From: Natrinema gari JCM 14663
GTDB taxonomy: Archaea; Halobacteriota; Halobacteria; Halobacteriales; Natrialbaceae
Assembly (NCBI RefSeq): GCF_000337175.1
Contig: NZ_AOIJ01000079.1
Span: forward strand, 12,188-76,187
DNA length: 64,000 nt
Reading direction: 5' to 3'
Shown: piece by piece, positions 9,129-63,898 of the stretch
Position numbering within the stretch: the stretch's first letter is position 1
Layout of the letters: each line of letters starts with the position of its first letter
Notes under the pieces: generated by a model
Told to the model about the DNA's origin: nothing
The model's input: the letters and a program-made list of their open reading frames with translations, nothing else
Databases searched by the model: none
Program-made: the position numbers and the translations under genes

Positions 9129-10094
9129 ATGGAGATCGGCGTGCATACCCCACCACTGGCCGACGAACCACTCGAGAGCGCGCTGCCCTATCTCGACGGA
9201 CTCGGCGTCGGGGCGATCGAACCGGGCGTCGGCGGGCATCCGGGCCAGGACCACCTCGAGCGGGCCGCATACCTCGACGACGAGAGCGAACAGGCGGAGC
9301 TCCGCAGTCTGCTCGCGGAGTACGATATGCGGATCAGCGCGCTCGCGACTCACAACAACCCCCTCCATCCCGACGAGCAGCGGGCCGAGAAAGCCGACAC
9401 CGAACTCCGCGAGGCGATCCGACTGGCCGCCCAACTCGAGGTCGGGACCGTCACCTGCTTCTCGGGACTCCCGGCCGGCGGGCCGAACGACGAGGTGCCA
9501 AACTGGATCACGGCCCCGTGGCCGCCCGAACACGCCGACGCGCTCGAGTACCAGTGGGAGCGGGCCGTCGACTACTGGGGTGAGATCGCGGCCCTGGCCG
9601 CCGATCACGAGGTCGATATCGCGATCGAGATGCATCCGAACATGCTGGTCTACGAGCCCCATGGACTGGCGCGGCTGCGCGAGGCGACCGGCGAGCGGAT
9701 CGGCGCGAACGTCGACCCCTCGCATCTCTACTGGCAGGGGATCACGATCACCGACGCGATCCGCTATCTGGGCGAGCGCGACGCGATCCACCACGTCCAC
9801 GCCAAGGATACCAAGATCTACGACGCACAGGCCCGCGAAAAGGGAGTGCTAGACACGACCGCCTACGACGACGAGCCCAACCGCTCGTGGCTCTTCCGAT
9901 CGGTCGGGTACGGCCACGACGAAATCCACTGGAAGGACATCGTCTCGACGCTCCGGCTGGTCGACTACGACGGCGCGCTGAGCATCGAACACGAGGACTC
10001 CCTGACCAGTTCGCGGGAAGGGCTCGAGAAGGCGATCGACCTCCTCGAGCGGGCGATCTTCGAGACCCAGCCCGGAGACGCCTACTGGGCGTAG
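9129..10094 (+). CDS. Sugar phosphate isomerase/epimerase (AP endonuclease 2-like TIM barrel)
   Basis: A 321-residue single TIM-barrel domain of the xylose isomerase-like family. Likely metal ligands are in the strand ends IAIEMHPNM, NVDPSHLYWQ, HHVHAKDTK and LSIEHED. Relatives include inosose isomerases, keto-sugar epimerases and tagatose epimerases, so the reaction cannot be named. It follows the dehydrogenase by 76 bp on the same strand, a pairing common in inositol and sugar catabolic clusters. The ATG was chosen because the conserved first strand (MEIGVHT) begins there. Confidence 0.88.
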   Translation: MEIGVHTPPLADEPLESALPYLDGLGVGAIEPGVGGHPGQDHLERAAYLDDESEQAELRSLLAEYDMRISALATHNNPLHPDEQRAEKADTELREAIRLAAQLEVGTVTCFSGLPAGGPNDEVPNWITAPWPPEHADALEYQWERAVDYWGEIAALAADHEVDIAIEMHPNMLVYEPHGLARLREATGERIGANVDPSHLYWQGITITDAIRYLGERDAIHHVHAKDTKIYDAQAREKGVLDTTAYDDEPNRSWLFRSVGYGHDEIHWKDIVSTLRLVDYDGALSIEHEDSLTSSREGLEKAIDLLERAIFETQPGDAYWA

Positions 10095-57944: not shown

Positions 57945-58871
57945 ATGGCAGCGGAACAGGCCGCAGACGGCTATCTCTTCGACCTCTATCGTCGATACAT
58001 CGGTGAACCGGAGGACCGGACCGACGTCTACGTCGGTTTCGGTCTGTTTCTCGGCGGGATCGGGCTGGCAATCGTCGCCCTCGTACTCTTCGTCTGGGCC
58101 AACACGTTCGAAGCGCGGTCCGGGAGCTACTTCGCGTGGGTCGGGCCCGCGTACGCGCTCGCGATGATGGCCCTTCCCGTGACCATGCTCGGAATCGTCG
58201 TACTCCTGCCCTCGGAGCGCCGCATGCTGTATACCTCGGTCGCCGGCGTCGTCATCACTGCCGGCGCAGTCGTCGGCTTCCTGGTCGTCTATCCCGACCA
58301 CTGGAACGGCTACGGTGCCGATTACACCGTTTCCGTCGTCGCGGTCTACGCCCTCGGACTCGCCGGGATCACCGCCTCGACTGGCGCGGCGCTGATCGCA
58401 CACTACCTCGACATGGCACAGCAAGCCGAAGTCGTCGCAACCGACACCGACGAGGACGACGCCGAGCCCGAACTCACCGACGCGGAGGTCCAACGGGACA
58501 TCGACGACGCGATGGACGGCGTCGAACTCTCGTGGGGAGGCGTTGAACAGACCGAGCACAAACGGCTCTCCTTCTCGAGCGACGACCTCGACGACGTCAG
58601 TATCGACTCGGACGCCGGGACGACGACGACCCGCTCGTCGGGCGTCGATGCACAGGTCGCTGGCCTCAAGGGACTGAAAGGGGGCGAGACGAAAGAGACC
58701 ACCTCGAGTTCGACGGTCGACGACCAAACGGCGAAACTGCGGGAACTGCGGGAACAACAGCGCGCGGAGGAGTTGGCCACGGCCGACGACGACGGTGGTG
58801 CCGTCGAAACCGTGGCAAAGCCCTTTTCAGGGCTCATCGAGAGACTGCGGGCTCTCGTAAAACGGAATTAA
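57945..58871 (+). CDS. Membrane protein with acidic cytoplasmic tail (DUF7139-like)
   Basis: A 308-residue protein. Four hydrophobic helices lie in residues 28-150. A long charged tail with DTDEDDAEPELTDAEVQRDIDDAMDGVELSW, Ser/Asp stretches and a helical end (LRELREQQRAEELATA) follows. Haloarchaeal homologues are annotated as permease-like or DUF7139. It sits 97 bp upstream of salactin on the same strand. The adjacency suggests a functional link such as membrane anchoring, though salactin has its own TATA box. Confidence 0.8.
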   Translation: MAAEQAADGYLFDLYRRYIGEPEDRTDVYVGFGLFLGGIGLAIVALVLFVWANTFEARSGSYFAWVGPAYALAMMALPVTMLGIVVLLPSERRMLYTSVAGVVITAGAVVGFLVVYPDHWNGYGADYTVSVVAVYALGLAGITASTGAALIAHYLDMAQQAEVVATDTDEDDAEPELTDAEVQRDIDDAMDGVELSWGGVEQTEHKRLSFSSDDLDDVSIDSDAGTTTTRSSGVDAQVAGLKGLKGGETKETTSSSTVDDQTAKLRELREQQRAEELATADDDGGAVETVAKPFSGLIERLRALVKRN

Positions 58872-58968: not shown

Positions 58969-60000
58969 ATGGCCAAAGGCCTGGACGTCGGTACGATGAA
59001 CATCCTGTCAGCACAGCAGGATGGGAACGATACGGTTTTCGTGCAACAGCGTAACTCATTCGTCGAGATCGAGTACTCAGATATGGCCGAGCAGATGCTC
59101 TCGCGAAGCGAAGTGCTCCACATTCGCAAGGACGACAAGGTCTACGTCGTCGGCGACGACGCGCTCAATTTTGCGAACATCTTCAACAAGGAGACCCGCC
59201 GCCCGATGAAACACGGGATCCTCTCGAACGACGAGCAGAGCGCGATCCCGATGATGAAACTCATTATCGAGCAGGTCGTCGGCGAACCCGCCTATCCCGA
59301 CGAGAAACTCTACTTCTCGTCCCCCGCCGACCCGATCGACTCCGATCTCTCGACGCTGTACCACCAGAAAACGATCGAGTCGTTCCTCGACGACATGGGA
59401 TACGACTCCGAACCGATCAACGAGGGCATGTCCGTCATCTACAGCGAACTCGCGGACAACAACTTCACCGGCCTGGGAATCAGCTTCGGTGCCGGGATGA
59501 CGAACGTCTGTCTCTCCTACTACGCGGTGCCCGTCATGAAGTTCTCCGTCGCCCGCGGCGGGGACTGGGTCGACGAGCAGGCCGCCCGCGCGACCGGAAC
59601 GCCCGTCGACAAGGTCACCTCGATCAAGGAGGACGACTTCGAACTCGACTTCACGACCGATGTCGGGGGCGTCGAAGGGGCGCTTTCGATCTACTACGAG
59701 AACCTCCTCGACTACGTCATCGAAAACATCGTCAAAGAGGTCGACGAGGAGGACGTCGAGGAAGGACTGGACGTTCCCGTCGTCGTCACCGGCGGTACCT
59801 CGAGCCCGAGCGGCTTCGAGGCGCTGTTCCGTGACCACCTGGCGGACGCGAACATTCCGTTCTCGATCAGCGGCGTAAGCCACGCGAACGAACCGCTGTA
59901 CAGCGTCGCCCGCGGTGGTCTCGTCGCCGCACGCTCCGACGAGGACGTCGACCACCAACAGGACGACGAGGACGCGGAAGCGGCAGCCGCAAACGAATAA
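58969..60000 (+). CDS. sal: Salactin, haloarchaeal actin-like protein
   Basis: A 343-residue actin/Hsp70-fold protein: phosphate-1 segment GLDVGTMNI (4-12), phosphate-2 segment [12 protein letters not shown] (168-179) and an adenosine motif [11 protein letters not shown] (272-282). Sequence and length match salactin of Halobacterium, a dynamically unstable actin homologue forming filaments from the cell pole. A short acidic Gln/Asp tail follows. The DUF7139-like membrane protein is encoded just upstream. The gene has a strong TATA box. Confidence 0.9.
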
Positions 60001-60060: not shown

Positions 60061-60243
60061 TCACTCGACGACCGACTCCTCGTAGAAGCGGTTGAACGCG
60101 TCCCGCCAGGATTCGGGCTCGTCGCCCTCCGGCTGGTGTTCGACCGGGACATCGGCGAACCCACAGTGGGGACACGCGACCGTCGACATCTCTCCGAGGG
60201 AGAGCTCTTCGACGGATCCCCCACACCGTGGACACTGCTCCAT
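60061..60243 (-). CDS. Small zinc-ribbon protein
   Basis: A 60-residue protein with CPRCGG and CPHCGF (residues 4-29), two CPxCG knuckles forming a zinc ribbon, then an acidic tail with WRDAFNRFYEESVVE. Haloarchaea carry many such short CPxCG proteins, some regulatory. It is convergent with salactin. Confidence 0.85.
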   Translation of the reverse strand: MEQCPRCGGSVEELSLGEMSTVACPHCGFADVPVEHQPEGDEPESWRDAFNRFYEESVVE

Positions 60244-60410
60244 ACGTGTAATTTTCCCGGAGCGTCCTTAACTCTATGCGAACCTGTCGCGGCGCGGAAG
60301 CGTTCCCGTCGGGCCGACTCGTCGGCTCCGCGGACGGCAGCAGGTCGTCCGGCGTATTACTACTGCGAATTCAATAACCTTTTTGTATGCAGCCTATGTA
60401 TGGTGCGGCA

Positions 60411-60806
60411 ATGAGTACGACGTCGTCCCACGGCTCCACGATCGATCGCTGTCACCCCGCAGATGCCACGCCGGTTACCATCGAGGCCGCAGCGCTCGAG
60501 TCGACGGCACCGGAGTACCTCCGCGATCTCAAGGAGCGACTGACCGATGAGGGACTGGTCCCCGCCGAACTGACCGTCGACGCGTGTTTCGACGAGGACT
60601 GCTCGCTCGCGACGCAGGCGGAAGTGGATCGCATCCGCGGCTACGTCCGTGCCGGGTCCTTCCTCGGCGTCGGCACGGTGACCGTCACCGTCGATGGCGT
60701 CGCGGACCCCGAGAAGGTCCGCCCCGCGCTGGCGGCCTGTGCGGAACGAGCCGACCGCGACGGGATCGCGTTCGCTCTCGAGGGACCCATCGCCGTCGAC
60801 GCGTGA
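60411..60806 (+). CDS. Haloarchaeal protein of unknown function
   Basis: A 131-residue protein: PVTIEAAALESTAPEYLRDLKERLTDEGLVPAELTVDACFDEDCSLATQAEVDRIRGYVRAGSFLGVGTVTVTVDG (described by position, about 20-95), with alternating helix and strand and two cysteines. I do not recognise it. Its stop is one base before the start of the METTL5-type methyltransferase, so the two genes are translationally coupled, which suggests a role in the same RNA modification. The start MSTTSSHG is used; an in-frame ATG at 60387 is possible. Confidence 0.8.
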   Translation: MSTTSSHGSTIDRCHPADATPVTIEAAALESTAPEYLRDLKERLTDEGLVPAELTVDACFDEDCSLATQAEVDRIRGYVRAGSFLGVGTVTVTVDGVADPEKVRPALAACAERADRDGIAFALEGPIAVDA

Positions 60807-60807
60807 G

Positions 60808-61455
60808 ATGACCGGACCCTCGCGACGGACGCTCGCTCGCCGTCTCGAGTCGATCGTGGACTTTGCTGACCCCGCGGCCGACCTCGAGCAGTATCTGACG
60901 CCGGCGGAGCTTGCGGCCCACATCTGTCATCTGGCCGGGTTGCACGACGACCTCGAACGGCGCGTCGTCGATCTCGGAACGGGAACCGGGATGCTCGCGA
61001 TCGCGGCGTCGCTGGCCGGTGCCCGCCGGGTGGCGGGGATCGACGTGGACTCGGGAGCCCTCGACCTGGCTCGACGAAACGAGCGGACGGTTCTGGACGG
61101 ACACGGAGCGGGCAGCGATCGCACTCTCGAGTGGCTCCGCGGGGACGTCACTCGGCATCCGTTCTCGGTGACCGACGCGACCGTGGTCTCGAACCCCCCG
61201 TTCGGTGCCCAACGCGGGAACCGACACGCGGATCGGGACTTTCTCGAGACGGCCGAAGAGATCGCGAACGTCTCCTATACGATCCACAACGAGGGGAGTC
61301 AGTCGTTCGTCGAATCCTACGCCGCGGACGCCGGTGGCGAGGTGACACACGCGTTCCGCGCCGCGTTCCCGATCGCGAAGCGGTTCGCGTTTCACACCGA
61401 AGCCGAGGCAACGCTCGAGGCCGAAGTCTTCCGGATCGAGTGGGAGACGGCTTAG
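60808..61455 (+). CDS. METTL5-family RNA N6-adenine methyltransferase
   Basis: A 215-residue Rossmann-fold methyltransferase. The AdoMet-binding VVDLGTGTGMLAIAASL (about 52-68) and acidic loop GIDVDSGAL are followed by the amino-methyltransferase motif NPPFG (about 127-131), and then NVSYTIHNEGSQSF. The set is diagnostic for METTL5, which methylates an adenine of small-subunit rRNA in eukaryotes. The archaeal substrate is inferred. It overlaps the convergent membrane gene by 4 bp. Confidence 0.9.
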   Translation: MTGPSRRTLARRLESIVDFADPAADLEQYLTPAELAAHICHLAGLHDDLERRVVDLGTGTGMLAIAASLAGARRVAGIDVDSGALDLARRNERTVLDGHGAGSDRTLEWLRGDVTRHPFSVTDATVVSNPPFGAQRGNRHADRDFLETAEEIANVSYTIHNEGSQSFVESYAADAGGEVTHAFRAAFPIAKRFAFHTEAEATLEAEVFRIEWETA

Positions 61456-62053: not shown

Positions 62054-63898
62054 TTATCCGACCGCGCCGTACGTCTCTTCGCTCGCGATCGCGACTCGCG
62101 TTCCGTCGGCGGCCGCGTAGATCGACTCGTCTTCGCGGTCGAAGGTGAGTCCGCCCGCCGTCGTCGTCTCGTTTGCAGCCGGCACCGTCGTCGTCGCGAC
62201 CCCATCGGTCTCGGTCGGTGTTACCTCGAGGACGAACTCCCCATCGTCGGAACTGATCGTCACGTTCCGGCCGGCGATCTGTGCCTCCGCCCGGGACTCG
62301 TTTGACTCGTGTGCGAGCCGTCGGTCCTCGCCGTCTGCCCACAGCCAGACCTGATAGACGGTCTCGTTGCCGACGGGTTCCCACCCGGTTCGCTCGACGT
62401 GGACCGCTTCGCGCCAGCCGGGACCGCCGACGTACACCGTCTCCTCGCCGGTGAAGGAGAGCCGCTGGGCGCTGACCGCCTCGAGCCAGATCTCGCGTCG
62501 CTCACTCGCGACGATCACCCCGCTCGAGTCGAGACCCGCGTCGCTCTCGATGGCTTCGACGCCGATTCCGGTCACGAGCCCGTTCGGAACGCCCTCGACG
62601 TACTCGACGGTGTAATCCTCGATCTCGACGGCCGCGTTCGATGCCGCCGTCGCGTCCTCGACGACCAGGAAATTGGCGGGGATGGCGATGCCGGCGACGA
62701 CCGCGAGGACGCCGATGACCGCGAGGAACGCGGTCCGTCTGCGGGTGAGGCCAAGCAGCGAACTCGAGTCACGGGCCCGCGATCGGGTTCCCGCGATGAT
62801 CTCGCGAATCCGGTCGACATGAGCCGCGACGACGCCGTCGCCGTCGGTGTCGCCCGCCAACTCGAGTGGCCGATCGATCGCCGACGGAGTCCCGCCGTCG
62901 GACCGGGAGGACTGTCGCTGCGCTCGCGCGAGCAGGCGTTCGAGTCGCTCGGGGATGACCGGGTTCTCCGACGCGGTCATCGAGAGGGTGACCACGAGCG
63001 CGAGTATCGAGACGACGGCGACGCCTGGACCCTGAAAGAGGACGTACGAATCGTCGCCGCCGAACCAGTAGATCGCCCACAGTCGCTTCGAGAACCCGAA
63101 GAGGAGGACGGCAAGCCAGAGTCGCAGCGGGTTCGGGCGGGTCCCCCGACGCTCGAGGAGCGCGATCCCGAGGACGAAACCGAGAAAGAGACCGAGCGCA
63201 TGGCCCTGGATGGCGATCCCGGCCCACGACGGCGGCGATGGGGGACTTGGCTGGGCGGTGTATACCCTGATCGGGTCCTGCAGCGCGTAATAGAGGCGCA
63301 ACACGACGTTCTGGACGCCGAGCATCCCGACGATCGTCGCGATCGGATAGTGGACGATGGCGAAGCCGGCGAACGCGAAGACGACGCCGGAGAAGCCGAT
63401 CACGGGACCGAGCGCGAACAGGCTCGTCACCAGACCGACGGCGACGACCGCCAGCGGAAACACCGCGACGGCACGGACTCGCGGATCGGTTCGCCACGAG
63501 CCAGCCCGTTCCGAGTCGCGCCCGTCCGGATAGTGACCCCAGGCGTATTCGGCCAGCGGTGCGACGACCACCGTTCCGGCGAGGTTCCCGACGAGGTGGC
63601 CGGGGCCGGCGTGGGAAAACGCCGCCGTGACCATCCCGAGCGGATAGAAGTACGACCAGGTCCGGTAGGGGATCGTCACCGGCTCGTCGACGTTCGTGAG
63701 CCCGTCCTGTACGAAGAGATAGACACAGACCACGAACGCGATGACCACGAGCGATCCCCACGGGACGCCGTAAACGAATCGCGACTGGAGCACGTCACGC
63801 CAGCGCCGAGCCGGCCGGTGGACCCGCCGTACGACGGCGATCGACCCCACCAGCGCCGCGGCGACGAGGACCGTCAGCAGGGCCGCAAGCGAGCGCAT
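62054..63898 (-). CDS. Rhomboid-family intramembrane serine protease, long form
   Basis: A 614-residue protein. The rhomboid domain spans about 45-310 with HLVGN (101-105), the catalytic serine in GFSG (Ser170) and the partner His233 in IQGHALGLFLGF. After a cytoplasmic linker and one more membrane helix (about 398-420), residues 425-614 form a beta-rich domain predicted outside the cell. Rhomboids cleave membrane-anchored proteins. The added C-terminal domain is unusual compared with the short bacterial enzymes and may select substrates. The start MRSLAALL begins with a hydrophobic helix. Confidence 0.9.
   Translation of the reverse strand: MRSLAALLTVLVAAALVGSIAVVRRVHRPARRWRDVLQSRFVYGVPWGSLVVIAFVVCVYLFVQDGLTNVDEPVTIPYRTWSYFYPLGMVTAAFSHAGPGHLVGNLAGTVVVAPLAEYAWGHYPDGRDSERAGSWRTDPRVRAVAVFPLAVVAVGLVTSLFALGPVIGFSGVVFAFAGFAIVHYPIATIVGMLGVQNVVLRLYYALQDPIRVYTAQPSPPSPPSWAGIAIQGHALGLFLGFVLGIALLERRGTRPNPLRLWLAVLLFGFSKRLWAIYWFGGDDSYVLFQGPGVAVVSILALVVTLSMTASENPVIPERLERLLARAQRQSSRSDGGTPSAIDRPLELAGDTDGDGVVAAHVDRIREIIAGTRSRARDSSSLLGLTRRRTAFLAVIGVLAVVAGIAIPANFLVVEDATAASNAAVEIEDYTVEYVEGVPNGLVTGIGVEAIESDAGLDSSGVIVASERREIWLEAVSAQRLSFTGEETVYVGGPGWREAVHVERTGWEPVGNETVYQVWLWADGEDRRLAHESNESRAEAQIAGRNVTISSDDGEFVLEVTPTETDGVATTTVPAANETTTAGGLTFDREDESIYAAADGTRVAIASEETYGAVG

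Follow-up and report, generated by a model that had tools for sequence, protein, structure and literature searches.

A predicted half TIM barrel encoded just ahead of METTL5 in haloarchaea, and its possible role as an optional accessory

A small gene separated by a single base from the METTL5-type methyltransferase gene downstream of it in Natrinema gari encodes a protein, here called SP, that is under purifying selection within its genus and that is predicted, from a structural model, fold comparison and a collinear profile match, to be one half of a xylose-isomerase-like TIM barrel. The gene is tightly coupled to METTL5 in most of the haloarchaeal genomes that carry it, and it is absent from others where METTL5 is kept. 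METTL5 is the m6A methyltransferase common to archaeal 16S and eukaryotic 18S rRNA, and human METTL5 is stabilised by TRMT112. SP is tentatively interpreted here as an optional accessory of METTL5 or of its ribosomal substrate, coupled to METTL5 in translation, and not as a required substitute for TRMT112; that it is a passenger of the operon is nearly as likely. The window referred to throughout is the whole stretch of 64,000 nucleotides that was analysed.

The small gene and its neighbourhood

The features of the window that surround the small gene are the following.

57945-58871, plus strand: DUF7139 protein, preceding Volactin
58969-60000, plus strand: Volactin (PF25216), upstream of SP
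60061-60243, minus strand: 60-aa zinc-ribbon gene, divergent from SP
60411-60806, plus strand: SP, 131 aa, predicted stand-alone half TIM barrel, xylose-isomerase-like (from the ORF, selection, the model, and fold and profile matches)
60807-60807, plus strand: the one base that separates the SP stop codon from the METTL5 start codon
60808-61455, plus strand: METTL5/COG2263-type adenine-N6 methyltransferase, NPPF motif present
62054-63898, minus strand: rhomboid-domain protein, convergent with METTL5; serves here as a control for slowly decaying synteny

The SP reading frame runs from an ATG at 60411 to a TGA at 60804-60806 (131 codons) and that of METTL5 from an ATG at 60808 to a TAG at 61453-61455 (215 codons), which bears out the first-pass annotation of a small gene one base ahead of a METTL5-type gene. 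An upstream in-frame ATG at 60387 would lengthen the SP frame; relatives of SP start at the MST of 60411, with M1 invariant and S2 present in at least 90% of 73 aligned sequences, the starts in this alignment having been picked close to that of the window. Because long chance reading frames are common in GC-rich DNA, selection on SP was tested, and the median dN/dS over 105 pairs from 15 genomes of the genus was 0.173 for SP and 0.174 for METTL5. SP is a real gene under purifying selection within the window's genus. The nearest species-titled SP loci, at 98% identity, are those of Natrinema altunense and N. pallidum, and a public N. thermotolerans record annotates SP as a hypothetical protein; its neighbour there is a protein with a methyltransferase domain, and dph2 and a rhomboid protease lie close by. 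In N. thermotolerans A29 the neighbourhood from dph2 to RNA polymerase subunit L, SP and METTL5 included, is found on a large secondary replicon (locus L284; CP031304.1, 987 kb, titled plasmid).

The downstream gene encodes an ordinary member of the METTL5/COG2263 family (PH1948; HVO_1475), and nothing unusual was found in the enzyme itself. The window METTL5 matched PH1948 (1wy7) with an E-value of 4.9e-25 over residues 6-210, the NPPF motif being aligned, and human METTL5 (6h2u) with an E-value of 2.3e-20. In Haloferax volcanii, HVO_1475 (COG2263) has been predicted to be responsible for m6A1432 of 16S rRNA (excerpt of PMC2584109), and it is listed among deleted genes in a table that notes no growth defect for it (excerpt of PMC3017900). 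HVO_1474 is the rhomboid rho1 (excerpt of PMC11985538), in agreement with the gene order around METTL5 here, and from gene order we infer that the H. volcanii SP is HVO_1476. Literature searches found no publication on SP and none for HVO_1476. Upstream, the zinc-ribbon protein had one weak match above a Pfam cut-off (zf-FPG_IleRS), and PF03966 was not among the 25 families listed for it.

Predicted fold and origin of SP

The AlphaFold model of SP (73 relatives) had a pLDDT of 90.1 and a pTM of 0.80, and its 131 residues form four strands alternating with three helices (E-H-E-H-E-H-E), i.e., three strand-helix units plus a strand. A Foldseek search of the PDB gave a best E-value of 1.7e-4 (7vpf, a putative sugar isomerase; IolI, 1i60) and six matches with E-values of 0.001 or lower; among the 50 matches listed, most bear the name of a xylose isomerase-like protein, a sugar isomerase or an epimerase, and the remaining ones (for instance C-glucosyl deglycosidase and Dgp/Dfg complexes) presumably have the same barrel. 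VIA-align, which covered the Foldseek-ranked chains only, gave a top Z of 9.6 (3.1 A, 112 residues) and 43 chains with Z of at least 8, to be read with the tool's own remark that models lacking a clear match often reach a best Z of 7 to 8. Residues 16-131 of SP were typically placed on approximately residues 28-170 of barrels that are about 280 aa long.

Comparison with Pfam and NCBIfam gave nothing above any curated cut-off for SP. PF01261 (AP_endonuc_2) scored 15.9 bits against the window SP, below its cut-off of 31.1, and touched 37 of the 73 members with a best E-value of 1.6e-4, again below cut-off in the one displayed in full. Pilus_CpaD matched 15 of the 73 with a best E-value of 7.5e-6, a better single value than that of PF01261, and these matches are perhaps compositional. 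A profile of SP aligned with five haloarchaeal sugar isomerases over 96 collinear columns (E 2.1e-4, with an hhalign probability of just 45%), the alignment ending where the invariant isomerase Glu154 meets E124 of SP. The two controls, METTL5 and endonuclease IV, gave E-values of 0.23 and 0.089, and endonuclease IV received no support as another source of SP. Elsewhere in the window, at approximately 9204-10049 on the plus strand, there is a full-length PF01261 sugar isomerase-like stretch beside a reading frame that resembles an oxidoreductase by eye.

A Glu, Asp, His and Glu are invariant in the aligned isomerases, and we take them to be the metal ligands. Only the first of these positions exists in SP, at E124, a site occupied by E or D in 51 of the 73 members and by T, S, A, V or R in the others; the second barrel half is missing, and with it the invariant Asp, His and Glu. 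With an isomerase-like fold and profile, and the remaining ligand positions in the missing half, SP is best described as a half barrel in which catalysis has very likely been lost. It is thus similar to the xylose-isomerase-like TIM barrels (PF01261; IolI, D-tagatose/allulose 3-epimerases) in the fold of about strands 2-5 and in a collinear profile that ends at the first metal-ligand Glu, but unlike them it is a half barrel only, its metal site is incomplete and it falls below the Pfam cut-off. The invariant residues of the 73 sequences are M1, L37, F60, R76, L85, G86, A109, R113, R116 and G118; three of the nine that follow M1 are helix arginines (R76, R113, R116), which suggests that they mark a putative binding face. 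The earlier description of the small protein as unknown therefore no longer holds as to its kind, AlphaFold, Foldseek and profile comparison having all led to half of a xylose-isomerase-like TIM barrel, severed directly behind the position of the first metal-binding Glu.

Linkage to METTL5, distribution and loss

METTL5 lies downstream of SP on the same strand in 89 of 91 loci of a non-redundant set of relatives and in 67 of 68 species-genome loci, two sets that have species in common and are not independent; the single exception in the second (L221) stops at a contig end. Gaps could be computed for 88 loci of the first set, with 68 at -10 to +10 bases, 16 at 11 to 80, and outlying values of 224, 380, 534 and -220, the last a start-choice artefact. 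The species-genome set gave 56 of 66 computed gaps at -4 to +10, and in 13 of the 66, seven of them from Haloferax, the SP stop overlaps the METTL5 start (gap -1). Two genomes keep both genes on the same contig at a distance, about 136 kb in G148 (L106/L154) and about 51 kb in G252 (L113/L155). Eight frames flagged as possible SP-METTL5 gene fusions (L017, L050, L054, L079, L092, L094, L107, L119) are in another reading frame than SP, and so no fusion was seen. A read-through of SP and METTL5 as a single chain, taken from loci in which they share a frame, was modeled by AlphaFold with a mean pLDDT of 88.2, good within each domain, and a two-domain pTM of 0.66, given without an error matrix. 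The mirror-tree correlation (r 0.65, 88 loci) was uncorrected for shared ancestry and was given no weight.

Retention of the other neighbours was scored in the 66 species-genome SP loci of at least 8300 bases, where METTL5 was present in 66, the rhomboid gene in 45, volactin in 37, DUF7139 in 36 and the zinc ribbon in 32. The rhomboid gene also adjoins METTL5 in 24 of 28 loci without SP; being convergent it is unlikely to be a functional mate, yet it has long been adjacent, so that long-lived adjacency is weak evidence here. METTL5 follows directly behind dph2 in four SP-less loci (L125, L133, L246, L247), and the order dph2-SP-METTL5 is found in two SP-bearing loci (L109, L211), as if a translation-modification operon had either received SP or lost it. 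The dph2 protein of L133 matches Diphthamide_syn, which places it in the Dph2 family.

Matches to SP were obtained in 22 of 41 relatives, a number reduced to 21 because that in G017 (E 9.2e-4) falls in an unrelated reading frame. A wider draw of 243 genomes from the order found SP in 145 and did not find it in the other 98, all of which have METTL5; with METTL5 in 243 of 243, its co-occurrence with SP is uninformative. A profile search across the phylum recovered SP in 33 of 294 genomes, every one in the same order, at most 14 candidates being scored per genome, so that a strongly diverged SP may have escaped it. When 84,980 named species genomes were scanned by pattern, 68 SP loci emerged, all with haloarchaeal titles. 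In the searches made, SP occurs in haloarchaea only. The SP-bearing genomes belong to ten families (f1, f3, f5, f6, f7, f8, f10, f12, f14 and f17), and none of the 145 belongs to family f4, of which 51 genomes were counted by eye in the METTL5 listing. Weak SP-like matches in G178:C2, G017:C1 and the 260-aa frames of G004 and G014 were rejected, as they lie in unrelated reading frames.

Within the window's own genus, 10 of 25 genomes are without SP and all ten keep METTL5. The interval from the zinc ribbon to METTL5 is 115-392 bases in these SP-less congeners versus 564 in the window. One genome (G006, locus L149) has a decayed SP remnant, with the zinc ribbon on one side and an intact METTL5 on the other; the first 38 residues of SP were matched in it (E 8.8e-6) and, behind them, a later piece weakly. 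In genomes without SP, a diverged copy ahead of METTL5 was sought by profile in 21 whole loci and in the 900 bases upstream in 28 loci (8 common to both), and only this remnant turned up. A quick METTL5 tree was built from 126 rows, 88 with SP and 38 without; it requires 18 changes of the SP label, at least four of them forced by well-supported branches, and by itself it cannot separate gain from loss. No METTL5 column was near-invariant in the 88 SP-bearing rows yet variable in the 38 SP-less rows. From the absence of SP where METTL5 is kept, together with this null result, METTL5 appears to be independent of SP.

Possible roles of SP

The first-pass annotation had suggested a partner or stabiliser of METTL5 from a family other than that of TRMT112, and had named absence of the small gene beside METTL5 in related genomes as one of two findings that would speak against it. 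The tight, conserved coupling and the different family stand; a need of the archaeal enzyme for SP is not supported, and absence was found in part of the related genomes (98 of 243 in the order, 10 of 25 in the genus). SP resembles TRMT112 and archaeal Trm112 (PF03966) in being a small protein considered as the partner of a METTL5-type enzyme; unlike Trm112, it gave no match to the Trm112p profile (PF03966) at E-values up to 1 and has another predicted fold, and Trm112 is itself encoded elsewhere in the same genome. Trm112 was in fact present in 21 of 21 genomes tested, that of the window included, and the eukaryotic kind of partner is thus available. That SP is a required stabiliser in the manner of TRMT112 would parallel the stabilisation of the human enzyme and would fit the tight coupling to METTL5, but it is largely refuted and very improbable in view of the 98 genomes that keep METTL5 where SP was not found, the remnant and deletions in congeners, and the Trm112 of every genome tested. 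The deletion of HVO_1475, with a growth defect not noted in the excerpted table of PMC3017900, also argues against it, as it implies little pressure for a required helper.

The existence of related species without SP makes it probable that SP is an optional helper or a neighbour rather than a required partner. As an accessory, SP would have descended from a xylose-isomerase-like sugar isomerase or epimerase, keeping about strands 2-5 of the barrel and losing the metal site, and would no longer be an enzyme. The open face of its barrel may be covered by self-association or by a partner, and the protein, presumably made in step with METTL5, could help METTL5 or its 16S helix-44 substrate as an optional accessory and not as a required subunit. 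We hold to this interpretation at somewhat less than even chances. Counting against it are the 10 of 25 congeners that retain METTL5 but not SP, the lasting adjacency of the rhomboid gene, the two genomes with a separated pair, the METTL5 columns that do not track SP, and a read-through model whose pTM of 0.66 is insufficient to demonstrate contact. Close behind it is a passenger of the operon, a real half-barrel protein with a job of its own whose gene would share a transcript with METTL5 among translation-related genes (dph2, METTL5), without contact between the two proteins. Such a passenger would be consistent with METTL5 directly behind dph2 in some loci and dph2-SP-METTL5 in others, with the two genomes in which SP and METTL5 are separated and both kept, and with METTL5 columns that carry no trace of dependence on SP; gaps of -10 to +10 bases in 68 of 88 loci, and a link to METTL5 that outlasts those to the upstream neighbours, are in favor of the accessory instead.

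It is also conceivable, if improbable, that SP retains enzymatic activity, with two chains closing an eight-stranded barrel that binds a metal and a small sugar-like ligand. Four strands taken twice do make eight, and the first metal-ligand Glu aligns to E124, acidic in 51 of 73 members; however, the substitutions at that position in other members, the missing Asp, His and Glu of the second half, and the presence of helix arginines as three of the nine invariant residues after M1 all speak against this. The most specific form of the accessory interpretation, a natural and selected half TIM barrel derived from a sugar isomerase and re-used as a haloarchaea-specific accessory subunit of METTL5, is regarded as rather doubtful.

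The TIM barrel is held to have originated from a duplicated (beta-alpha)4 half, an idea that both computation and engineered halves have been used to test (excerpt of PMC8250049). SP is similar to the engineered HisF half barrels described there in being an independent half of a TIM barrel, and differs from them in being natural, selected and from another barrel family. A natural stand-alone half barrel, found in ten haloarchaeal families and with selection measured in one genus, would directly test the barrel-doubling idea. If SP helps METTL5, an rRNA methyltransferase common to archaea and eukaryotes would gain a helper particular to one lineage and open to study in Haloferax.
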